Shown piece by piece: positions 17,126 through 29,068 of a stretch of DNA of 64,000 nt. The notes below the pieces were generated by a model that saw only the letters and a program-made list of their open reading frames with translations, was not told the DNA's origin and searched no databases. The stretch's first letter is position 1; the number at the start of each line of letters is the position of its first letter. Location of the stretch: contig JACQAM010000003.1 of the NCBI GenBank assembly GCA_016194975.1, positions 1 to 64,000 of the forward strand, written 5' to 3'. A program made the position numbers and the translations under genes. The DNA is from Bacteroidota bacterium. GTDB lineage: Bacteria; Bacteroidota; Bacteroidia; Palsa-965.

Positions 17126-18487
17126 TTATTTCAAGATATCCCGGAGAATACCAAAGACATCACGCGAAGTGATTTTATTCTCGTTTTTTCCTCCACCAAT
17201 GAAAACCGGCCAGTCATTCTTCGATTCCGGAATTCTTCCGTGTGATCCTTTCACCAAAGTTGCGTCGAGCGGAATTACATCCATCAGGTAGCGGAATCCT
17301 AATTTCTTTTTAATAATTTTTGATCCGACTTTCAATGCAGGTGCAGCGATCTGCGGATCAAGAAATAATTCTACAGGATCGTAGCCGGGCTTTTTATGGA
17401 TCTCTACCGTGCGCGCGAAGTCAGGCGCTTTTTTATCATCGAGCCAATAATAATAAGTGAACCAGGAATTTTTGTCGGCAACACAAATCAAATCGCCTGA
17501 ACGATCATGATCCAGGAAATATTTTTTCTGCTCGTTTTTATCCAGCACCATTTCTACTCCGTTGGTTTTTACGAGGAGGGCTTTTACTTTTTCAATTTCA
17601 ATTTTTTCCTTCACATATACATGCGCGAGCTGGTGATCGCACACCGCGAATGCGCGCGATGCACCTGCGTCAAGAAGTTCAAGACCGCTTTCTTCCCGAA
17701 TGGAGATGAAATTATTTTTCCGAAGCACACGATTCAGATGAACAGGATTATTCACCGAAGTAATTCCATATTCAGACAGCACGACCGCTTTCACATTTCT
17801 CTTTTCATAAAATGAAATTAATTTTTCACAAACACGATCAATCTCATTCAGATCAATTTTATTTTTCGCTACATCATTTCCATTCCTCTGAAAACAATAA
17901 TCGAGATGTGGCAGATATACCAATGAAAGTGTGGGCGAATATCGCTCTTCTACTTTCATGGAAGCATCAGCAATCCATTGCGAAGAACGGATACTTGTCT
18001 TCGGCCCCCAGAAATCAAACAGCGGAAAAATTCCAAGCTCATTCTGCAATTCATCGCGCAGCGCAGAAGGATGAGAATAAATATCGGGCAATTTCAATCC
18101 GTCGGCGTGATATTGCGGGCGCGGCGTTACGGAAAAATCGGCTGACGAATACATATTGTACCACCAGAACATATTTGCGCAGGTGAAATCCGGATTCTCT
18201 TTCTTCATCACTTCCCATATCTTTTCCGCCTGCACCAGTTTATTCGACTGACTCCAGAATTTTACCTCACACTCCTCGGAAAAATACCAACCATTGCCAA
18301 CGATCCCATGTTCCTTCGGATTTTTCCCGGTGAGATAAGTGGATTGAACGGAACAGGTGACAGCGGGAAGAATGGGATGCACAAGAGAAATATTTTTTTT
18401 CTCCGACCATTTTTTTAGAAACGGAGCGTGCTCCCCGATGAGAGACCGGGTAAGTCCAACGACGTTGATGACTGCGATTCGATTCAT
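17126..18487 (-). CDS. eboF: EboF-like alkaline phosphatase / type I phosphodiesterase family protein
   Basis: A 453-residue alkaline-phosphatase-superfamily enzyme of the nucleotide pyrophosphatase/phosphodiesterase type. The N-terminus INVVGLTRSLIGEHAPFL and the nucleophile region PAVTCSVQSTYLTGKNPKEHG (catalytic Thr/Ser) are visible, as are YLPHLDYCFQRNG and the metal-binding DHDRSGDL and KGSHGRIPES motifs. It closely resembles the phosphodiesterase encoded with eboABCDE in ebo clusters, which are linked to export or maturation of periplasmic metabolites such as scytonemin precursors. Here it lies 5.2 kb from eboE, on the same strand, beyond an inserted redox module. It has no signal peptide. 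Confidence 0.85.
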   Translation of the reverse strand: MNRIAVINVVGLTRSLIGEHAPFLKKWSEKKNISLVHPILPAVTCSVQSTYLTGKNPKEHGIVGNGWYFSEECEVKFWSQSNKLVQAEKIWEVMKKENPDFTCANMFWWYNMYSSADFSVTPRPQYHADGLKLPDIYSHPSALRDELQNELGIFPLFDFWGPKTSIRSSQWIADASMKVEERYSPTLSLVYLPHLDYCFQRNGNDVAKNKIDLNEIDRVCEKLISFYEKRNVKAVVLSEYGITSVNNPVHLNRVLRKNNFISIREESGLELLDAGASRAFAVCDHQLAHVYVKEKIEIEKVKALLVKTNGVEMVLDKNEQKKYFLDHDRSGDLICVADKNSWFTYYYWLDDKKAPDFARTVEIHKKPGYDPVELFLDPQIAAPALKVGSKIIKKKLGFRYLMDVIPLDATLVKGSHGRIPESKNDWPVFIGGGKNENKITSRDVFGILRDILK

Positions 18488-18868
18488 TTATTATAGTTGC
18501 GAATTATCCCGAAAATGTTCGGGACGAATATACAAATTACGAATGCGGGAACGGAATGAGGAAAGTGCGGATATACGAATTACGAATAGGGGAACGAAGT
18601 GCGAATAGGTGCGAAAATGCGAAGTGCGAATTTACAAATTACGAATGCGGGAACGGAATGCGGAAAGTGCGGATATACGAATTACGAATGAAATCATCGG
18701 TACTGATTTCCCTCACCAACTTAAGTGAGCATCATCATTCAGTAAACTTTTCATCGAATCTACTTTTGAAATGATTAATAGCATAATCATTCATCCCATT
18801 GAATTTTAACCGCTAACTATTCATCTTCTATTCTTATTCTCAGAAGGTGAAGAAAATTTATCGACAAA
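18488..18868. other. Divergent intergenic region with spacer-type repeats
   Basis: 381 bases between eboF (minus) and the Fe-S gene (plus). It must hold both divergent promoters. It contains two 57-bp direct repeats (listed separately) and several shorter tacgaattacgaat-like motifs of a kind often seen in Bacteroidota spacers. No open frame is supported. Confidence 0.6.
18531..18689. repeat. 57-bp direct repeat pair
   Basis: Copies at 18531-18587 and 18633-18689 differ at one base (gaatgag versus gaatgcg). Each starts tacaaattacgaatgcggg and ends tacgaattacgaat. The 45-bp gap is a degenerate version of the same motif (gcgaataggtgcgaaaatgcgaa). Confidence 0.9.
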
Positions 18869-19765
18869 ATGGATTCAGAAAATAAACCGGACAGAAGAAA
18901 ATTTCTCCGCTCCTCTTTTCTTGCATTGGGCGCCGGTTTTTTATCCGGTTCATTGCTTGAGTCGTGCGATCCTGAAAATGATACTGGAGAACAAGTGGCT
19001 GTTCTTACTCCGGATGGGAAATTAGTTTCGGTGCCGAAATCAAAATTATCCAGTGAACATTCAGTAATTACAAATGCCGAAGGGCGCGAAGGAATTCCTG
19101 GAAGAAAATTTGTAATGGTCATTGATCTTTCAAAATGTGATGGCTGTGGAAAATGCACTGAAGCCTGCAATAAAATGCACTTTCTTCCTCCCACGAAAGA
19201 ATGGATTGAAGTTTTGAAAATGCAGGATAACACGGAAGAAGCGCCTTACTGGTTTCCGAAAAACTGTTTTCATTGCGACAACCCACCCTGTACAAAAGTT
19301 TGCCCGGTTGATGCAACTTTTAAACGCGAAGATGGAATTGTTGCAATTGATAATGAGCGATGCATTGGTTGCAGATTTTGTATGGCAGCATGTCCTTATT
19401 CTGCGCGCACGTTCAATTGGGCTGAACCCATTAAACCAAATATCATAGAATCAAATGAATCAATAGAACATGTTTTTCAGAGTAAAAAAGGTTGCGTTGA
19501 AAAATGTGATTTCTGTCCGCACATGGCGAGAGAAGGAAAACTTCCTGGTTGCGTAACAGGTTGCCCTATGGATGCTATTTATTTCGGAGATGAAATTGAA
19601 GATGCGGTTACAGATGGGTCGGGCAATACGTTCCGCCTTTCGCAAATGCTCGAAGAAAAATCTGCGTATCGCTTCATGGAAGAATTAGGAACACAACCGC
19701 GTGTATATTATTTGCCGCCGTATAGCAGGATGTATCCTGGGCCGGAAAAAAATCAGCAATCTTAA
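18869..19765 (+). CDS. Tat-exported 4x[4Fe-4S] ferredoxin-like subunit (NrfC/PsrB/DmsB type)
   Basis: A 298-residue periplasmic electron-transfer subunit. The N-terminus has a twin-arginine motif (RRKFLRSS, residues 9-16) followed by a hydrophobic stretch and a lipobox-like LLESC (Cys33), so it may be a Tat lipoprotein. Four ferredoxin Cys sets follow: CDGCGKCTEAC, CFHCDNPPCTKVC, CIGCRFCMAAC, and CDFC...CVTGC, enough for four cubane clusters. Such subunits pass electrons between a quinone-reactive NrfD subunit and a catalytic or cytochrome partner. The stop overlaps the nrfD-like start (TAATG). Confidence 0.93.
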   Translation: MDSENKPDRRKFLRSSFLALGAGFLSGSLLESCDPENDTGEQVAVLTPDGKLVSVPKSKLSSEHSVITNAEGREGIPGRKFVMVIDLSKCDGCGKCTEACNKMHFLPPTKEWIEVLKMQDNTEEAPYWFPKNCFHCDNPPCTKVCPVDATFKREDGIVAIDNERCIGCRFCMAACPYSARTFNWAEPIKPNIIESNESIEHVFQSKKGCVEKCDFCPHMAREGKLPGCVTGCPMDAIYFGDEIEDAVTDGSGNTFRLSQMLEEKSAYRFMEELGTQPRVYYLPPYSRMYPGPEKNQQS

Positions 19766-21078
19766 TGACAAAGCAACTGTCCATACAGAATGAATTGATG
19801 AGTAAGATGCAGCCATTTTCTGTGAAAGGAAAAATACTGATCTGGCTGCTTACATTAATTTTTCTTGCAGGAATTTTTGCCTACATCTATCAACTGAAGA
19901 ACGGGCTTGTGGTGACAGCTATGAGAGATTATGTGAGTTGGGGATTATATATTTCTGTTTTTATTTTTTTTATCGGGATCAGTCACGTAGGTGCGCTCAT
20001 GTCGGCGATCCTGAGATTAACAAAAGCAGAATGGCGATATCCCATTACGAGAATGGCGGAAGCGATTACGTTTTCATCTTTGCTCTTCGCTGCGCTGATG
20101 CCGATCTTCGATTTAGGCCGCCCCGATCGCTTGCTGCATCTTTTATTTTATGGAAGAATTCAGTCGCCAATACTCTGGGATGTAATGGCCATCCTGACTT
20201 ATTTTTTCGGGAGTATTCTTTTTCTTTATCTCCCGATGATTCCGGATCTCGCTTTGTTGCGCGATTCAAAAAAAATTTCAACGGTAAGAAAATTTATTTA
20301 TTCAAAACTTTCTCTCGGATGGAACAATCTTCCCGAACAGAAAAAACTTCTTGATAAGTGTATTGGCATAATGACCCTAATAATTATTCCGATTGCTGTT
20401 TCCGTTCACACCGTTGTTTCGTGGTTATTTGCAATGACGCTTCGCCCGGGATGGTCAAGCACCATCTTCGGCCCCTATTTCGTTGCAGGTGCAATTATGT
20501 CGGGATGTGCTGCTGTAATTATTGCGATGGCTGGCTTCCGCAAAGCATATCATCTTGAAAAATATATTACGCTTAAACATTTCCAGCGGTTATCGATTTT
20601 ACTGCTCACACTGGCATTGATTTATTTTTATTTCAATGTGAATGAATATGGAGTTCCCGCTTACAAAATGGAGCGCGGCGAAAAAGAATTACTTACTGAT
20701 CTCTTCTACGGAAAGTACAGTTGGATTTACTGGATGGTACAAACTGCAGGATTGTTTATTCCAATGGTAATGCTTGCGTTTTCAGCAATAAGAAAATCTG
20801 TTCCCTCGATGGTAATTGCTTCAGTTTTGATTGTGCTGGGCTCATTGGTAAAAAGATATCTCGTCGTTATTCCAACACTGCTTCATCCGTTTATCCCTAT
20901 ACAAAATGCAGTTAAAGGATATGGCAATTATTTTCCAAGTGCAGCCGAATGGATGATAGTTGCAGGTTCTTTTGCAGGTTTTTTCCTGGTGTACATAGGG
21001 TTCTCAAAATTATTTCCAATTGTTCCAATCGTAGAAACAGCAGAGAATTTCACCATAGAAAAAAGCATCGATGAATAA
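19765..21078 (+). CDS. NrfD/PsrC-type quinone-interacting membrane subunit
   Basis: A 437-residue polytopic protein with about ten membrane helices and the NrfD-family core (WGLYISVFIFFIGISHVGAL, AEAITFSSLLFAALMPIFDL, GRPDRLLHLL, SPILWDV). NrfD proteins oxidise or reduce the quinone pool and are partnered by a four-cluster Fe-S protein, here encoded just upstream with overlapping stop and start. The direction of electron flow cannot be decided from sequence. The size and helices resemble the NrfD subunits of alternative complex III as well as PsrC. Confidence 0.93.
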   Translation: MTKQLSIQNELMSKMQPFSVKGKILIWLLTLIFLAGIFAYIYQLKNGLVVTAMRDYVSWGLYISVFIFFIGISHVGALMSAILRLTKAEWRYPITRMAEAITFSSLLFAALMPIFDLGRPDRLLHLLFYGRIQSPILWDVMAILTYFFGSILFLYLPMIPDLALLRDSKKISTVRKFIYSKLSLGWNNLPEQKKLLDKCIGIMTLIIIPIAVSVHTVVSWLFAMTLRPGWSSTIFGPYFVAGAIMSGCAAVIIAMAGFRKAYHLEKYITLKHFQRLSILLLTLALIYFYFNVNEYGVPAYKMERGEKELLTDLFYGKYSWIYWMVQTAGLFIPMVMLAFSAIRKSVPSMVIASVLIVLGSLVKRYLVVIPTLLHPFIPIQNAVKGYGNYFPSAAEWMIVAGSFAGFFLVYIGFSKLFPIVPIVETAENFTIEKSIDE

Positions 21079-21616
21079 AATAAAATTCATAGTATTTTTT
21101 CTGTTGACCCTTGTTTTCGCAAAAGTTTCAGGAGCAGAAAAAGATTCGTGTACAATAAAAATGAATGTGCTTAAAACCGATAGCGGTTATATCATTTCTG
21201 CATGGGTTCATAAAAAAGAAAAAGAAATTCCACTTAAAGATATTTCAGTGGTTTTCGAAGTGAAGAGATTATTCGGATGGATGGAATTGCCGGAAGAAAC
21301 AACCGACAGTACAGGACGCGCACAGGTATTTATTCCAATGGATCTTCCTCCACAACCAGATCATGGGTTAATGACTATTAAAGTTGTAATTGAAGATAAT
21401 GATGATGTGAATGACGCATCAGGCCAAATTGAATTTAAAACAATACGTCAGCCCGATTTGAAAACGCAAAAAACAAGTAGAGCAATATGGGCATCCAAAG
21501 CGCCGGTATGGCTGATCATTGTGGTGAGTGTTCTGCTTGGCGGCGTCTGGCTAACCTATGCCTTCGTACTCAAAACTATGCGCTCTATTAAAAAGATAAA
21601 TAAGTCCAACACATGA
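21071..21616 (+). CDS. Periplasmic beta-rich protein with C-terminal membrane anchor
   Basis: A 181-residue unknown. It has a signal peptide (MNKIKFIVFFLLTLVFAKVS), a ~115-residue beta-rich domain (ISAWVHKKEKEIPLKDISVV, GRAQVFIPMDLPPQPDHGL), and one membrane helix near the C-terminus (APVWLIIVVSVLLGGVWLTY) with a short basic tail. It overlaps the NrfD gene by 8 bases and the cytochrome gene by 4, so it is probably a co-translated accessory part of the redox complex. No family is recognised. Confidence 0.8.
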   Translation: MNKIKFIVFFLLTLVFAKVSGAEKDSCTIKMNVLKTDSGYIISAWVHKKEKEIPLKDISVVFEVKRLFGWMELPEETTDSTGRAQVFIPMDLPPQPDHGLMTIKVVIEDNDDVNDASGQIEFKTIRQPDLKTQKTSRAIWASKAPVWLIIVVSVLLGGVWLTYAFVLKTMRSIKKINKSNT

Positions 21617-21999
21617 AAAAAATAATATTACTTCTGTCTTTTACAATTTTTGCGTTCCAGCAAAAAACACAATGGGTGGCTCCGCCCTCTGCCGATAAAT
21701 TAAAGAATCCGGTTGCTGCTGATGAGAATTCGATTAATGCAGGCAAACTGATTTATTCGCCACAATGCAAATCCTGCCATGGATCAAAAGGAAAAGGTGA
21801 TGGCCCGAAAGCAGCAGACTTTGATGTTTCAGTAGGAGATTTTACTTCCGAAAATTTCAGGTCGCAGTCCGACGGAGCCATCTTCTGGAAAATCGGTGAA
21901 GGGAAAAAACCGATGCCCGCTTTCAAAGGAAAACTCAGTGATGACCAGCGATGGAATCTTGTGAATTATATCAGGACACTTGGAGCAATAAAAAAATAA
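21613..21999 (+). CDS. Small monohaem cytochrome c
   Basis: A 128-residue exported class-I cytochrome. It has an N-terminal signal segment, a haem motif CKSCH (residues ~54-58) in SPQCKSCHGSKGKGDGPKA, and a distal methionine in GEGKKPMPAFKGKLSDDQRW, followed by the final helix WNLVNYIRTLG. It would carry electrons in the periplasm to or from the Fe-S/NrfD complex. It overlaps the preceding gene by 4 bases. Confidence 0.9.
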   Translation: MKKIILLLSFTIFAFQQKTQWVAPPSADKLKNPVAADENSINAGKLIYSPQCKSCHGSKGKGDGPKAADFDVSVGDFTSENFRSQSDGAIFWKIGEGKKPMPAFKGKLSDDQRWNLVNYIRTLGAIKK

Positions 22000-22087
22000 T
22001 TTGAGGAAAGTCATTATTCCTCCTGACTGAAATCATTTTGTACTCATTTCAATTTTCAAATTTTTGTGTCACAAATTTTTATTAGCC

Positions 22088-23359
22088 ATGAAAAACATTC
22101 TTACACTATTTGTATTTGTTATAGTTATTTCTGGAAATGTTTTTTCCCAGGACAGCATTAAACCTTCTCCCACCTTTGGAGAATTGAAATACGTGATCAC
22201 CGGCGATGTGTTTTACGGATTCAAATATCTTTCATCACCAAGAGGAAACACCGCCACATTTACAACACTCGGTTACAACCCGGTGATCCTGTACAAACTT
22301 TCTGATAAACTATTCTTTGAAGGTGAAATAGAATTTCAAACCAGCCGCTGGCAGGAAGATCCCTCACTCACGAGCGGAAATGCTGCAGCAGAAGGGGTGG
22401 CAGTTGAACTTGAATATGCAAATATGAATTATGTTATAAATAAATATATGCTGTTTAAAGCAGGAGCGCTGTTCACTCCTTATGGAGTTTTTGAAGATTG
22501 GTATCACCAGCGAATCTCCAACCGTTTCACGAGTCGCCCGGTTGGAATTGGCCACGGAGGTATTGAACCCGGATCGGATGAAGGAATTGAACTGAATGGC
22601 GGAATTCCCATTGGCATAGCCAAGATGCATTACGCTGTTGCTTTACTCAATGGAGCGAAATTGATTACACAGCAGGAAGACGCATCAAATACCACAACAC
22701 AAAACATAGGCAACCTCGAGTATGAAAATATTATTGATAATAATACGAACAAAGCATTGGTCGCCCGAATAGGAATTCTGCCTTTCTCTGATAATTGTTT
22801 AGAATTCGGAGGATGGTATGGAAGCCAGGTGGTAAGCGCAACCGGTGATAAATTAAATTCAAATGTGAAAGCAATTCATTCCGGAGTTTATTTTTCTTTT
22901 GCGAAAGATATTGAACCCATTAAGGGAACAATCACTGTTCGTTCTCAATATTCAATGCTGTCGGTTGGAAATTTTCTTTACACTTTATCGAGCGATACAG
23001 GAACAAACATCGGAAAGCAATACTCATTTGCAAACAACAATAGTCACGCCTATTATGCTTCTTTTAATTATCGCGGGGCAATGATGAAAAATAAATACCT
23101 CAAGCGAATTGAAGTAGGCGTTCGTTATGGTTCTGTTACTTATCCTGACAAAGCCTATGGCAACTGGATAATGCCAACTACATCTTCTGCGGCAAAAAGC
23201 AGAACGCAATTAGCTTACGTGGTGGATTACTGGCTGAAATGGAATGCAGTTATTAAAATCGCTTATGAACAGAATTACATTGCTAAAGACCCGGTTAAGG
23301 GAACAACACCTGCTACCCCGCCGGGAACATTGGTGATACAATTTGCAATGGGATTATAA
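22088..23359 (+). CDS. Outer-membrane porin-like beta-barrel
   Basis: With the ATG at 22088 the product has 423 residues and a signal peptide (MKNILTLFVFVIVISGNVFS). The rest is alternating beta strands of a phosphate-selective-porin-like barrel (FFEGEIEFQ, YMLFKAGALFTPYGVFEDW, KALVARIGILPF, VVDYWLKWNAVIKIAYEQNY). The last residues (LVIQFAMGL) look like a barrel end. Porins of this kind are often encoded with respiratory modules, where they let small substrates or ions into the periplasm. Substrate unknown. Confidence 0.78.
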   Translation: MKNILTLFVFVIVISGNVFSQDSIKPSPTFGELKYVITGDVFYGFKYLSSPRGNTATFTTLGYNPVILYKLSDKLFFEGEIEFQTSRWQEDPSLTSGNAAAEGVAVELEYANMNYVINKYMLFKAGALFTPYGVFEDWYHQRISNRFTSRPVGIGHGGIEPGSDEGIELNGGIPIGIAKMHYAVALLNGAKLITQQEDASNTTTQNIGNLEYENIIDNNTNKALVARIGILPFSDNCLEFGGWYGSQVVSATGDKLNSNVKAIHSGVYFSFAKDIEPIKGTITVRSQYSMLSVGNFLYTLSSDTGTNIGKQYSFANNNSHAYYASFNYRGAMMKNKYLKRIEVGVRYGSVTYPDKAYGNWIMPTTSSAAKSRTQLAYVVDYWLKWNAVIKIAYEQNYIAKDPVKGTTPATPPGTLVIQFAMGL

Positions 23360-23377
23360 AATTTTAAATTGAAGGTC

Positions 23378-23650
23378 ATGAAAAAAATAAAAAATATTCT
23401 GTTCGTTGCAATAACGTTAATCGCACTTGCAACTATCGGTGGAAGTTGCGGCGCAAGTAAAGATATTGAATCGGAAAAAAGCGGCTCACAACTCTGGGGC
23501 GAAAATTGTTCCAGATGCCACAATGCGCCTGCCTCGTCTGTTTATTCTCCCGCCCAATGGGAGGTTCTGGTGATGCACATGAAGACACGGGCCATGATCC
23601 CCGATGAAGAATGCAAAAAAATTCTTGAGTTTCTTCAGTCAGGACAATAA
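23378..23650 (+). CDS. Small exported c-type haem protein
   Basis: A 90-residue lipoprotein-like product with a signal (NILFVAITLIALATIGGSCG, Cys in a GGSC lipobox), one haem motif CSRCH in WGENCSRCHNAPASS, and a possible distal Met in HMKTRAMIP. It resembles single-haem cytochromes encoded next to respiratory complexes. It ends the redox operon and is convergent with eboE, with only 5 bases between the two stops. Confidence 0.82.
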   Translation: MKKIKNILFVAITLIALATIGGSCGASKDIESEKSGSQLWGENCSRCHNAPASSVYSPAQWEVLVMHMKTRAMIPDEECKKILEFLQSGQ

Positions 23651-23655
23651 GCGAT

Positions 23656-24864
23656 TCATTTCATTTTTTCCAAAAGCCATTTCAATTCACGGATGATGGA
23701 TTCATCAATCGGCAATTTTTCTTCTTTTGGTAAAACATCCCACGTGTAGGTTTCTACTTCGAGATGAGAAGTAAATTTATTTTTTTTCAGGATCTCAAAA
23801 ACTTCCAGGATGTCTTCCTGCGTAGAAGCGAGCGCACTATAAGCGGGCATGAACACAGGCACATGGTAATGCGTGCGCCACTCGACCCAGTCTTTATTTT
23901 CAAATTCTTTTAATGCATCAGGAAGATCTGTAAAATGGCGCAGTTCTCCTTTATTATTTTTTGCAATCGTCTGGTGGAGATAAGTTGACTCTGCGAATGA
24001 AGAATATTTTTCCAGGATATTTTTTCGATCTGCTTTTTCTTCCGTGAGGACTTTCAGCGCGGAACTGATCTGCACTTTCCCGATTTTAATTCCTGCATTC
24101 TGAAATTTCGCGATCACGCTTCCCGGTTCTTCAAATTCCACAGCAAAATGGCAAACATCATAACAGATGCGGATGTGGTCAAGGATGAGTTTTGTTGCTT
24201 CTTCATTATTCAAACCATTTTTGTCGTTGAAATAATTTACGCCGAATGGAATGAGATAATTTTTAAAAAAGAAAATTGTTTCATCAGAATTCTCCAGCAG
24301 GCAACGCGGCTCCGGTTCAATATCGAGATGAATTATTTTCCCTGTCGAATTCCTGATCGCCGCCATTTCCTCCACGCATTTCATCAAATGAAAACAGGAA
24401 GACTTAATAATAAAATCCAACTGGGCGGTGTCTTTGATCCACGGTTTGAAAGATAACGGAGAAGTTGAAATTCCTCCTTCGGAATTTTCTGAGATTAATT
24501 CGGCCATCACATTGATGAGGTCAAGCGTGTATTGCAAACGAAGATCGGTGGTCCAGTCGGGTTTGTACACTTCATCTTTTACAATGGAATGATGAAAATT
24601 CCCGAATGGAAATCCATTCATCGTGAAAACATAACAATCCTTCCCCTTCAACCACGATTTGAATTCATCGAGATGATTTTCCGTCAACAGGACGCCTGCT
24701 GCTTCCGCACTCAATCGTAAACCAATTCCGAATTTTTTATCGGGAGAAACTGAATTTTTAATTCCGGGAATATTTTTCTTCAGCGCAGCGAAAACTTCTT
24801 CCCACGTTTCACCGGGATGAATGTTGGAACAATACGTGAGATGTAAATTCTCCGCGATCTCCAT
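23656..24864 (-). CDS. eboE: EboE-like TIM-barrel metabolite traffic protein
   Basis: A 402-residue protein of the sugar-phosphate isomerase/AP-endonuclease (TIM-barrel) type. It has the N-terminal LHLTYCSNIHPGETWEEVF, typical of EboE, and candidate metal ligands in HLDIEPEPRC, CYDVCHFAVEFEEP and SHLEVETYTWDVLP. EboE belongs to the conserved eboABCDEF set, which helps move or mature a secondary metabolite at the cell envelope. Its reaction is not known. It lies 2 bases downstream of eboD. Confidence 0.9.
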   Translation of the reverse strand: MEIAENLHLTYCSNIHPGETWEEVFAALKKNIPGIKNSVSPDKKFGIGLRLSAEAAGVLLTENHLDEFKSWLKGKDCYVFTMNGFPFGNFHHSIVKDEVYKPDWTTDLRLQYTLDLINVMAELISENSEGGISTSPLSFKPWIKDTAQLDFIIKSSCFHLMKCVEEMAAIRNSTGKIIHLDIEPEPRCLLENSDETIFFFKNYLIPFGVNYFNDKNGLNNEEATKLILDHIRICYDVCHFAVEFEEPGSVIAKFQNAGIKIGKVQISSALKVLTEEKADRKNILEKYSSFAESTYLHQTIAKNNKGELRHFTDLPDALKEFENKDWVEWRTHYHVPVFMPAYSALASTQEDILEVFEILKKNKFTSHLEVETYTWDVLPKEEKLPIDESIIRELKWLLEKMK

Positions 24865-24866
24865 TT

Positions 24867-25988
24867 TCAGGATTTGAAATTCTTCAGAAAACCAACAGCA
24901 TTCATCATCAGTTGCTCATGCACTTCATGAACTTCAATTCCTTTCCCGATCTTCTCCAGCAACATAATGGTCAATTCTCCCCCGAGATGTTCACGGAATT
25001 CCTGCAACCCTTCAAGTAAATTATTTTCCATCTCATTCGCGAACAATTTGAAATTTAATTTTTCCGAAAGATTGATGAGGCGCAACAATTCTTTTTCGCT
25101 CAATTTCCCAATGAGATTTGAATAAACGGCATCCAAACACATTCCAATAACCACGGCCTCACCATGACGAATTTCATACTTGCTCAATTGTTCAATCTTG
25201 TGCGCACTCCAGTGTCCGTAATCCAGCGGGCGCGAACTTCCTTGTTCAAAAGGATCGACGCTGGCAATATGTTGCAAATGCATCGAGGCGCAAACGTAAA
25301 TTAATTGCTTAATAATTTTTTCATCACGATTATTTAATTCGTCTGCATGCTTCTCGATGAAATCAAAAAAATCTGCGTCTTTCACCAACGCAACTTTTAT
25401 CGCTTCCGCAATTCCACAACGGAAATCACGATCATCTAAAGTTTTCAGAAAAGAACAATCGTTGATAACAGCAAAGGGTGGGGCAAAAGTTCCCAGAAAA
25501 TTTTTCTTCCCGAAATAATTTATTCCATTTTTCACACCAACACCAGAATCGTTTTGAGATAAAACAGTTGACGGAAAACGAATGTGACGAATTCCACGAT
25601 GAGAAATCGCAGCAGCGAATCCAACAACATCAAGAACGGCTCCTCCTCCAATTGCAACAACATAAGAATGTCGATCCATTTTATTTTCATCAATTGCCGA
25701 AAGAATATTTTGAAGAACTCCGAAATCATTTTTTGCTGTTTCTCCTCCACCAACAATCATTCTTGCTGTTGCCAATTTGTAAGGGGAATTTTTAAAATAA
25801 TTTTCAATTCGATTTACTAAATCCAAATCAGTTCCAACAACTGCATTGTCGATTACAAAAAGAAATTTACTCCCTGCTTGAATTCCACATTGTGCGAAAA
25901 TATCTTCTTTGTTTTTTTCTCGATCAAAAAATGAATCGACAAAAAAAACCGGGTAGGAAAAATTTATTTTGAATTGCTGGCGGATCAC
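24867..25988 (-). CDS. eboD: EboD-like 3-dehydroquinate synthase homologue
   Basis: A 373-residue member of the dehydroquinate-synthase/sugar-phosphate cyclase family, starting at a GTG. The NAD site GGGAVLDVVGFAAA (~116-129), the AEAIK glutamate, and the two metal histidines in DYGHWSAHKIE and RHGEAVVIGM are all present, so catalysis is plausible. In ebo clusters this paralogue is thought to make a cyclitol-type product rather than serve the shikimate pathway, and its context here (between eboC and eboE) supports that reading. Confidence 0.9.
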   Translation of the reverse strand: MIRQQFKINFSYPVFFVDSFFDREKNKEDIFAQCGIQAGSKFLFVIDNAVVGTDLDLVNRIENYFKNSPYKLATARMIVGGGETAKNDFGVLQNILSAIDENKMDRHSYVVAIGGGAVLDVVGFAAAISHRGIRHIRFPSTVLSQNDSGVGVKNGINYFGKKNFLGTFAPPFAVINDCSFLKTLDDRDFRCGIAEAIKVALVKDADFFDFIEKHADELNNRDEKIIKQLIYVCASMHLQHIASVDPFEQGSSRPLDYGHWSAHKIEQLSKYEIRHGEAVVIGMCLDAVYSNLIGKLSEKELLRLINLSEKLNFKLFANEMENNLLEGLQEFREHLGGELTIMLLEKIGKGIEVHEVHEQLMMNAVGFLKNFKS

Positions 25989-26084
25989 GGCGGTTTTCTG
26001 AAATTGATTCCGAAATTACCAATAAGTTCTCTCCCGATAACAATCGGGATTCTCCAGAACGGACAAAAAACAAAGATCAAAAAA

Positions 26085-26981
26085 TCACGTTACAGAAAAA
26101 ACCTTTGCAAGTAAAACAGAAACAGGAAGCAGCGCGAGGACGATCAAAGCATAGTGCCAGCCCATGAATGAAACGGAAATGGTAGCGTCCATCGCTATGA
26201 GTGCGAGCACGCCTGCTTTCACTGCCTTGCGGATATTCATTGGTGCGGGATCGGAAAACGCATTGAAAAGCGGCTGGTAAATGAGCGCGGCGAACAGGAT
26301 GGCAAAAGCATCTGTGATGAAAATATCTGTTTTATGGATCACATAAAATGGAATAAAAAGTAATCCGGCGATCACCATCAAATAAAAAAATCCGGCAACA
26401 AGAATTGCTTTTTTATTTCCGCCCATTACTTCCCCGCGGCTGATCATGGTAATTGCAGCAATGTAAATGACCGGCAGGATCGCGAGCGGATAGCAATTGC
26501 GCAGGATCCAAACGGACGCGCTCATTCCTAATAATAAATTCCCACCGCGGCATAATCCCATATTGAGTGGGCCGAAAAATTTATGCGGCTTTGCGAAAAA
26601 ATCGTAATTCAATGCGAATAACGCAACGAAAAAAGCTACTACTCCGCTGAGAAGTGAAACCATGCACGCCGCGCAAATCCCAAAGATCAGAAGGCAAATT
26701 CCGAAAATGGAGGCGCCTTTCCTGCTTGCCAATCCACTTGGAATAGATCGTTCCGGCCTTTCAATTTTATCCAGTTCAGCATCCGCAACATCATTCATTA
26801 CCACACCACCGCCATACAAACCGATCGTTGCAATAATGAGAAAAAAAAGTTTTGAAGAATGATCCGTTACCGTGTCGTAATCTTTCCAGGTTACTAATGA
26901 AAATCCCGCGAGGATATCGGCGACTGCCGTCACAATATTTGCGGGACGCATCAATCGTAAATACGCGAGAATAGTTTTCAT
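26085..26981 (-). CDS. eboC: EboC-like UbiA-family prenyltransferase
   Basis: A 298-residue membrane protein with about eight to nine helices and the first Asp-rich motif NDVADAELDKIERPERSIPSG (residues ~63-83), which binds Mg-prenyl diphosphate in the UbiA family. The second Asp-rich motif is weak (NAFSDPAPMNIRKA near 241), as in other Ebo UbiA homologues. It probably attaches a prenyl chain or handles a lipid carrier for the Ebo metabolite. Its start codon lies in the first copy of a 110-bp tandem duplication, so the spacer to eboB is unusually long. Confidence 0.9.
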   Translation of the reverse strand: MKTILAYLRLMRPANIVTAVADILAGFSLVTWKDYDTVTDHSSKLFFLIIATIGLYGGGVVMNDVADAELDKIERPERSIPSGLASRKGASIFGICLLIFGICAACMVSLLSGVVAFFVALFALNYDFFAKPHKFFGPLNMGLCRGGNLLLGMSASVWILRNCYPLAILPVIYIAAITMISRGEVMGGNKKAILVAGFFYLMVIAGLLFIPFYVIHKTDIFITDAFAILFAALIYQPLFNAFSDPAPMNIRKAVKAGVLALIAMDATISVSFMGWHYALIVLALLPVSVLLAKVFSVT

Positions 26982-27190
26982 TTCACCAATGGATAAATCA
27001 CATTCAACGATTATTTTTCAGGAAAGAAAAATACACAATGCCAAATGACATTGAACATTATTTTTTTCACCTGATGATTTATAGTTTTCATTTCACCAAT
27101 GGATAAATCACATTCAACGATTATTTTTCAGGAAAGAAAAATACACAATGCCAAATGACATTGAACATTATTTTTTTCACCTGATGATTT
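26971..27190. repeat. Perfect 110-bp tandem duplication
   Basis: 26971-27080 and 27081-27190 are identical. Each copy carries the first codons of eboC, the spacer, and the last 14 bases of eboB. The duplication leaves both genes intact but doubles the spacer between them. It is either a very recent slippage event or an assembly artefact. Confidence 0.95.
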
Positions 27191-28085
27191 TCGGATCCTT
27201 CTCTTCCACCAATGGTTTTTGTCCGCCGCGCAGAATGGAATTGCCATGATATTTCAGGTTCTGATCAACGGGATCTGCATTCAGCCAATCGCTCTCGTTG
27301 AATTGTCCGCTTTGTCCGAATGCTTCAAGCGCATTGGAGTAACAGACTTTTTTCACATCGTCTTCAGAAATTCCGCGCTCCAGCATCAGCGCGGCAGTTT
27401 TCGGAACGGCCAGCGGATCGCTCACGCCCCAGTCGGCTGCGGAGTTGATGAAAATATTCTTTGTACCATATTGCTTTACAATTTCCACCATACGTTCATT
27501 TCCCATTTTCGTGTGCGGGTAAATGGTGAAGCCCGCCCAGAATCCGCGGTCGAGCACTTCTTTCACGGTCTCTTCATTGTTATGATCGACGATCACCATG
27601 CGCGGGGAAAGGTTGTGTTCCAATACAACATCCATGCTGCGTGAAGTTCCTTTTTTCTTGTCGCGGTGCGGCGTATGGATCTGCACGGGAAGTTTTGCTT
27701 CTTTCGCCAATTCCAGTTGCAACCGGTAATATTTATCTTCAAGATCCGTCTGGTCGTCATAGCCGATCTCTCCTACTCCAACCACTCCGTCTTTGTAAAT
27801 GAATTTCGGAAGCAGGTGCATCACCTGTTCGGCGAGCGCTTCGTTATTTGCTTCTTTTGAATTCAACCCGATGGTACAGTAATGTTTTATTCCGAATTGA
27901 CTGGCACGGAATCTTTCGAAACCCACGAGCGTATTGAAATAATCGAGAAAAGTTCCGGCCGAAGTGCGCAATTGTCCCTGCCAGAAAGAAGGTTCAATGA
28001 TGGCCACAATTCCGGCCTTGCGCATGGCTTCATAGTCGTCGGTCGTGCGCGAGACCATGTGTATGTGAGGATCGATGTATTTCAT
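27177..28085 (-). CDS. eboB: EboB-like TatD-family metal hydrolase
   Basis: A 302-residue amidohydrolase-fold protein with the N-terminal DPHIHMVS metal motif, VGVGEIGYD, LPVQIHTPHRDK and IVDHNNEETV blocks, and the NSAADWG Asp near the end. TatD enzymes are metal-dependent nucleases or hydrolases. The Ebo paralogues form their own branch whose substrate is unknown. It follows eboA by 80 bases. Confidence 0.88.
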   Translation of the reverse strand: MKYIDPHIHMVSRTTDDYEAMRKAGIVAIIEPSFWQGQLRTSAGTFLDYFNTLVGFERFRASQFGIKHYCTIGLNSKEANNEALAEQVMHLLPKFIYKDGVVGVGEIGYDDQTDLEDKYYRLQLELAKEAKLPVQIHTPHRDKKKGTSRSMDVVLEHNLSPRMVIVDHNNEETVKEVLDRGFWAGFTIYPHTKMGNERMVEIVKQYGTKNIFINSAADWGVSDPLAVPKTAALMLERGISEDDVKKVCYSNALEAFGQSGQFNESDWLNADPVDQNLKYHGNSILRGGQKPLVEEKDPKIIR

Positions 28086-28165
28086 TCTGATAATTTACGA
28101 TGTACAATTTACGATTTGAAATTCTGACTGGCTATTTTAAACTGACGCTGAGAACTGTCGCTTTT

Positions 28166-29068
28166 TTATTTAGTAGTCCATATTTCAACCCCGAGATTTC
28201 TCCAGTTGAGTTCTCCGCTTTCCACTTTCATTTTGTATTCACTCATCGCATAAATTTCTTCAGCATCAGTGATCTGGCATTGCGAACAACAGATTGCAGC
28301 TGCCATTCGCTCGAAATAATTTTCACTTCGCGATAGGCGATACATATCAGTCATGTCTTTCATTTCAAGAAAATCTCCAACCAATTGCCAGGTCTCCGGA
28401 TTCAGTTCTCTTCCCGCAGCCCAGCGCTCGTGCGCGTAATCGCTTGCCATGTGCGCGAGTTTTTTATTCGGCCGCTTGTGTAAATTCTGAATTTTATACA
28501 ATGGCTTTCCTACAAAAAGAGACTTCAACACCATCTGGTTGAATGCATCTTCCGGAAGATAATTCGACGGAAACGGGTTTTCATTGGCAACAGCTTCAAA
28601 AACTTCTCCCATATTTGAACGAACACCTTCCATGCATCGCGGAATAAATTTTTCCGGAAAATAAAAAAGAGGAAGCGCAGAATAGATCACCACCTGCTCA
28701 CCGGCATCGGCCGTAGAAAAAAGATCTTCAATAGTATGCACATATTCAGTTTCATTCTCATTAGGAATCTGCAAAAGGATCAGCGTGCGGACCGCTTTAT
28801 CAATTGAACGCGGCGGCCTCCATCCTTCACAGATCTTTCCGGCTTGCGCATATTCATCTGCAGAAAATTTCAATTCCGATCTTCCGAATAAGCGAACTGC
28901 TTTACTGAATGCATTCGATAAATAATCCGCCGAAGTATTTTCTTTCAGCCCGCTCAGCACGCTTTCCAGTTCCTCGTTAATATTTTTTTCAAGAATACCG
29001 CCCAGTTTTTCCTTCAGGAATTTCTTCGCCTTGGAAACATCAGTCGGTAAAAATGAAATTATACTCAT
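28166..29068 (-). CDS. eboA: EboA-domain protein
   Basis: A 300-residue, mainly helical protein without a signal peptide. It carries the features of EboA, the first gene of ebo clusters: WRPPRSIDKAVRTLILLQI, AGEQVVIYSALPLFYFPE, PFPSNYLPEDAFNQMVLKSL and LAHMASDYAHERWAAGR, where the last two look like repeat-type helical blocks. Function unknown. It starts the eboABCDE operon. Its promoter region has been changed by insertion of a small mobile element 5 bases upstream of the -7 box. Confidence 0.87.
   Translation of the reverse strand: MSIISFLPTDVSKAKKFLKEKLGGILEKNINEELESVLSGLKENTSADYLSNAFSKAVRLFGRSELKFSADEYAQAGKICEGWRPPRSIDKAVRTLILLQIPNENETEYVHTIEDLFSTADAGEQVVIYSALPLFYFPEKFIPRCMEGVRSNMGEVFEAVANENPFPSNYLPEDAFNQMVLKSLFVGKPLYKIQNLHKRPNKKLAHMASDYAHERWAAGRELNPETWQLVGDFLEMKDMTDMYRLSRSENYFERMAAAICCSQCQITDAEEIYAMSEYKMKVESGELNWRNLGVEIWTTK

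Follow-up and report, generated by a model that had tools for sequence, protein, structure and literature searches.

A putative menaquinol dehydrogenase operon with a monohaem porin-cytochrome cassette in a Bacteroidota genome

Gene content and surroundings of the operon

The window, by which we mean the whole stretch of 64,000 nucleotides that was analysed, comes from a Bacteroidota genome of 4.1 Mb in 28 contigs, 99.78% complete. Between positions 18869 and 23650 it holds six co-directional genes on the + strand, FeS, NrfD, BETA, CYT1, PORIN and CYT2, which make up one operon with successive gene junctions of -1, -8, -4, +88 and +18 bp. All six reading frames lie on one strand where the first-pass annotation had placed them, with two starts revised: that of PORIN is better placed at the ATG at 22088 than at the TTG at 22064, and that of CYT2 is better placed at the ATG at 23378. 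A literature search gave no description of this operon.

The flanking genes (17126-18487 and 23656-24864) are both on the opposite strand. The operon sits between the parts of an ebo-like cluster (17126-18487 and 23656-29068), recognised by EboE (493 bits, cut-off 250), an AroB-like protein and a Phosphodiest match, together with UbiA-like and TatD-like proteins assigned by eye; EboE was not found in six other genomes of the genus. The GC content of the operon is 40.2%, against 43.4% in the rest of the window, and the idea of a genomic island was dropped because this value is less than two standard deviations away from the window mean. A single TAnnTTTG element occurs at 18761; as chance can produce one such element, no promoter was inferred from it.

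The quinone-side proteins and the search for a catalytic partner

FeS (18869..19765, + strand) carries a Tat signal (RRKFLRSS), a lipobox-like Cys33 and four complete four-cysteine [4Fe-4S] motifs (C90-93-96-100, C133-136-141-145, C165-168-171-175 and C213-216-228-232), as the first-pass annotation had described; besides these sixteen cluster cysteines and C33 it has C209. The protein matches Fer4 families in Pfam and NCBIfam and is of the DsrO/PsrB/ActB C-terminal type: its best equivalog is DsrO (193.2 bits, below the 200-bit cut-off), and it matches the C-terminal domain of ActB, a subunit of alternative complex III (ACIII). Its third motif is complete (CIGCRFC), whereas the ActB of the same genome has Thr for Cys at this place (CVGTRYC). 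The second cysteine of the first motif is kept in the window and at loci L033 and L036, and is lost in many FeS relatives (L038-L050, L090-L100 and others).

NrfD (19765..21078, + strand), a predicted quinone-binding membrane subunit, matches PF03916 with 131 bits and stays far below the cut-offs of the DsrP (100.9 bits, cut-off 350) and QrcD models. Among solved structures it matched ActC of ACIII (E 5e-61 to 3e-54), and the other NrfD matches were two weak ones of the ActF type, with no further NrfD kind. In a tree of 29 module NrfD proteins, 19 ActC proteins and E. coli HybB, NrfD and DmsC, built without PsrC, QrcD, DsrP and HmcC, the module proteins form one clade (93/87) beside the ActC rows (95/99); the E. 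coli proteins fall far from this clade, with long branches that make their exact position unsure. The window NrfD thus belongs to a separate clade that is sister to ActC, and it does not group within any known catalytic complex.

The residues of R. marinus ActC named by Calisto and Pereira (PMC8076601) were used as reference. S164, D169 and R395 are retained in the window NrfD (S134, D139 and R364). The H139 position is Asp (D116), as in 26 of the 29 module rows, and the D253 position is Leu (L221), a site occupied by Leu, Ile or Val in 29/29 rows; all 19 ActC rows carry His and Asp at these two positions. Asp at the H139 position is common among other quinone-active NrfD proteins (PMC8076601). 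This residue pattern, along with the complete third motif of FeS, suggests that NrfD is quinone-active and related to ActC, yet not part of an ACIII. Two relatives near the module clade (L098 and L099) have as neighbours a pentahaem protein resembling ActA and a split protein resembling ActB, which in L098 is a full molybdopterin enzyme; this arrangement is possibly an intermediate between the module, Qrc and ACIII.

BETA (21071..21616, + strand) has a signal peptide and a C-terminal transmembrane helix at about residues 146-180, so that its earlier description as a membrane-anchored beta protein stands, whereas its assignment to an unknown family does not: the model is a seven-strand Ig-like sandwich followed by the C-terminal helix (pLDDT 72), its profile has a weak match (E 4e-6) to intimin Ig domains, and Foldseek returned weak Ig-like matches. 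Most relatives have a longer, two-domain BETA.

No catalytic subunit is encoded among the six genes, as had been noted at first pass. The genome-wide search for an orphan partner, which covered molybdopterin, NrfA and NiFe hydrogenase families, with octahaem reductases and DsrMK outside it, found no molybdopterin enzyme besides the genome's own ActB, no NrfA (no PF02335 match) and no NiFe hydrogenase. Two NrfD-family loci exceed the cut-off in this genome: that of the window and the ActC of a full ACIII (G000:C8, about 155-164 kb), which is adjoined by the only COX1 of the genome. Several known assignments were rejected for the operon. An ACIII would require the multihaem ActA and the molybdopterin-like domain of ActB, both missing here, and the residues are D, D, L, S and R for H139, D169, D253, S164 and R395. 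The PsrABC/TtrABC type (CISM) was set aside because there is no molybdopterin catalytic subunit in the operon and ActB alone in the genome, NrfABCD because of the lacking NrfA, and DsrMKJOP because the DsrO and DsrP scores are both below the curated cut-offs.

The porin-cytochrome cassette and its distribution

CYT1 (21613..21999, + strand) is a periplasmic monohaem class I cytochrome c (CKSCH) by Pfam and NCBIfam. CYT2 (23378..23650, + strand) is a monohaem lipoprotein with a lipobox-like Cys, the haem motif CSRCH, a conserved W61 and a conserved H67-M68, of which M68 is likely the distal haem ligand; it falls below every Pfam cut-off (Cytochrome_CBB3, 18 of 27 bits). With one CXXCH each, these are indeed the two single-haem proteins reported earlier. 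PORIN (22088..23359, + strand) is a predicted outer-membrane beta barrel that matched nothing in Pfam or NCBIfam and whose profile found no relative among solved structures. Its model is barrel-shaped but poor (pLDDT 52), which makes the strand count weak. Foldseek with this model returned general porins, the top query TM among the matches listed being 0.53 (OprP) and 0.52 (OprO), likewise a weak resemblance.

Profile searches over 395 genomes of the class showed that PORIN and CYT2 travel together. CYT2 lies directly downstream in 42 of the 46 PORIN matches (E<1e-40), in 41 of these at 144 bp or less, and among 43 CYT2 matches (E<1e-25) the single one that has no adjoining PORIN is at a contig start. 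CYT1 is upstream of PORIN or fused to it in 24 of the 29 loci fetched, and CYT1-PORIN-CYT2 is also found as a stand-alone cassette lacking NrfD. In three genomes of two families (L174, L175 and L176), CYT1 and PORIN are fused in one open frame of 539-642 aa, with a CYT1 part (E about 1e-43 to 1e-45) followed by a PORIN part (E about 1e-94 to 1e-97), and a separate CYT2 gene comes after each fusion. Gene fusion is a usual sign of two proteins working together. CYT1-PORIN-CYT2 is therefore itself a conserved cassette and PORIN-CYT2 a unit; given this conservation and the natural fusions, the cytochromes and the porin seem to form the system's output side, a second half that the first-pass annotation had missed. 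Some PORIN cassettes are flanked by copper or cation efflux genes, Met-rich proteins or a multicopper oxidase (L036:530-8800, L101 and L103, by eye). A distant CYT2-like monohaem protein is encoded elsewhere in the source genome (L183:8283-8606, G000:C26), beside a 276-aa protein that has no assigned family.

A Fibrobacterota MAG (L035), Hydrotalea (L036) and locus L037 have all six genes in this order, and the identities between L035 and the window are 57/54/26/43/28/48% in operon gene order. The same genes in the same order in L035 and L036 indicate that the arrangement is not due to chance. FeS-NrfD-BETA-CYT1 recurs in Bacteroidota and in the Fibrobacterota MAG, and a Gemmatimonadota MAG (L043) has at least FeS-NrfD-BETA. 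In the phylum sample, NrfD was found at E<1e-80 in 12/395 genomes and 12/171 genera, a count that takes in the window's own genome and two genomes (G201 and G429, loci L098 and L099) in which NrfD sits with ActA- and split ActB-like genes instead of the module partners. When this last type was left out, an outer-membrane barrel gene was counted by hand in the neighbourhood of 33 of the 36 module loci that are untruncated and come from other genomes, not all of them independent, the exceptions being L043, L056 and L062. In some loci the set around the barrel is PORIN and CYT2. In others the barrel is DUF5777, mostly accompanied by a monohaem lipoprotein (CX4CH or CXXCH) and in many cases by an EB_dh or YceI lipoprotein; the DUF5777, EB_dh and YceI families were confirmed, and DUF5777 was nowhere mentioned in the literature searched.

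The source genome has a second outer-membrane set, which lacks NrfD (L185:7139-8770, G000:C20 about 122-124 kb), composed of a DUF5777 barrel and two monohaem proteins, one CXXCH and one CX4CH. CXXCH proteins of one family adjoin the module at L060:6471-7298 and L061:14442-15218 (phmmer 2e-52 to each other); the L060 protein ends in a type IX secretion tail, recognised by profile, and both may therefore be haem proteins of the cell surface. At L173 (G026:C34 49-65 kb) one contig carries two tandem NrfD modules and, a few kb away, two CYT1-PORIN-CYT2 cassettes, together with Crp and MarR-like regulators.

Proposed electron path and related systems

Taken together, we consider it fairly probable that the operon encodes a menaquinol:cytochrome c oxidoreductase like SirCD that lacks a dedicated catalytic subunit and is connected to a monohaem porin-cytochrome conduit resembling a split Cyc2. 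Menaquinol would be oxidised at a P-side site of NrfD, and electrons would then travel by way of the four [4Fe-4S] clusters in FeS, which is Tat-exported and lipid-anchored, to the monohaem CYT1, which might dock at the PORIN barrel, with BETA as a putative periplasmic scaffold. CYT1, PORIN and the outer-membrane lipoprotein CYT2 would form a split, Cyc2-like cytochrome-porin, in which the PORIN-CYT2 unit may hand electrons on to an acceptor located on the cell surface or beyond it. From the parts, their cofactor motifs and quinone-site residues, the gene order, its modular conservation, the CYT1-PORIN fusion and the missing searched-for partners, all read from sequence, we infer complex formation, the electron path, the crossing of the outer membrane, its outward direction and the acceptor. 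Single haems must be closely packed to span the outer membrane, which counts against such a conduit, as do the copper-resistance genes by some PORIN cassettes (L036, L101 and L103), which would fit another role, and the three modules that have no barrel. Outward flow is favoured for two reasons: the cassette comes with a quinone module dedicated to it, and SirCD, the nearest working precedent, runs outward (PMC11434368); the stand-alone cassettes could work in either direction.

Other explanations were considered as well. FeS-NrfD might be a minimal ACIII substitute that oxidises menaquinol while CYT1 feeds a caa3 oxidase, the porin and CYT2 being an unrelated transport unit. The match of CYT1 to class I cytochromes of the cbb3/caa3 type, the proximity of NrfD to ActC and the presence of one COX1 would agree with this, but the genome already has a full ACIII beside that sole COX1, other genomes have CYT1 fused to PORIN, and nearly all modules adjoin an outer-membrane set, so that we regard the substitute as unlikely. 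Equally unlikely, in our view, is an inward conduit that works in the manner of Cyc2: an extracellular donor, for instance Fe(II) or a reduced metal, would feed CYT2-PORIN-CYT1, from which electrons would go to an oxidase or, uphill, through FeS-NrfD to quinone. It draws on the layout that the CYT1-PORIN fusion shares with Cyc2 (PMC8406198), on the EB_dh proteins of sister operons, archaeal FoxC resembling EB_dh gamma (PMC10654088), and on the stand-alone cassettes, which lack NrfD; outward flow is nevertheless the simpler fit for a dedicated quinol-type NrfD partner. Named carriers, for example Mucilaginibacter and Pontibacter, are moreover heterotrophs, which also speaks against an inward conduit.

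A role of the cassette in redox metal homeostasis, in which it would oxidise or reduce copper or some other metal at the outer membrane, would be suggested by the CusA/CusB-like genes that flank L036, the multicopper oxidase at L103 and the Met-rich proteins at L101 (by eye), but no such neighbours occur at the window operon or at most PORIN cassettes, and we hold it to be very unlikely. Least credible is a pairing of the module with a catalytic partner whose gene lies at another place in the genome, as the first-pass annotation had offered. The nearest non-module NrfD relatives, L098 and L099, do sit with split ActB-like proteins, a full molybdopterin enzyme in the former and a pentahaem protein in both; the source genome, 99.8% complete, has in contrast no molybdopterin enzyme save ActB, no NrfA and no NiFe hydrogenase, which largely refutes the pairing; what is left for it is a new class of enzyme or a reductase, octahaem or other, beyond those searched.

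Surveys of extracellular electron transfer search for multihaem cytochromes or fused Cyc2. More tentatively than for the operon itself, we propose that Bacteroidota may use interchangeable monohaem-only outer-membrane conduits (PORIN with CYT1 and CYT2, or DUF5777 with monohaem lipoproteins and EB_dh or YceI), fed by a dedicated ActC-related quinol dehydrogenase, as a form of this process that multihaem-cytochrome searches would miss. If single-haem proteins and a small barrel do suffice, many Bacteroidota thought to be without such respiration may have it, including the culturable Mucilaginibacter and Pontibacter, which carry the sister form of the module and in which the proposal could be tested in laboratory strains. 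The CYT1-PORIN fusions also offer a plausible intermediate on the way from separate genes for porin and cytochrome to a single chain of the Cyc2 kind.

Among known systems, SirCD of Shewanella, CbcTU of Geobacter Cbc4 and DsrOP are Fe-S and NrfD quinol dehydrogenases that have no catalytic subunit of their own and feed periplasmic cytochromes (PMC11434368). The window operon also combines an FeS with an NrfD that bears quinone-site residues, and it too lacks a catalytic subunit, but it differs in its partners BETA and monohaem CYT1, in the porin cassette of the same operon and in its ActC-type NrfD. The quinone:cytochrome c oxidoreductase of new composition proposed at first pass fits the inner-membrane half, where NrfD retains S164, D169 and R395, shows the H139 to D and D253 to L changes and forms a clade beside ActC; this part is less new than was proposed, since such pairs are known from SirCD. 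ACIII (ActABCDEF) resembles the operon in the sister relation of NrfD to ActC and in the match of FeS to the ActB C-terminal domain; the operon differs in having no ActA, ActB molybdopterin-like domain, ActD or ActF, in a third motif that lacks the [3Fe-4S] Thr, and in not keeping H139 and D253. The iron-oxidising Cyc2 has one haem in an N-terminal cytochrome followed by a porin in one chain, with a 16-stranded barrel modelled on OprP and OprO (PMC8406198), the porins that also head the matches listed for the poor PORIN model, although the resemblance there is weak. The CYT1-PORIN fusions share this layout, and the likeness is one of layout, whereas the window has separate CYT1, PORIN and CYT2 genes and a second haem lipoprotein. 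MtrAB, PioAB and OmbB-OmaB also join a porin with periplasmic and outer-membrane cytochromes in one operon; in the window operon, in contrast, the cytochromes are single-haem and the barrel is of about 400 aa. The inner-membrane half of the operon already has known kin, and the monohaem outer-membrane half is its more novel part.
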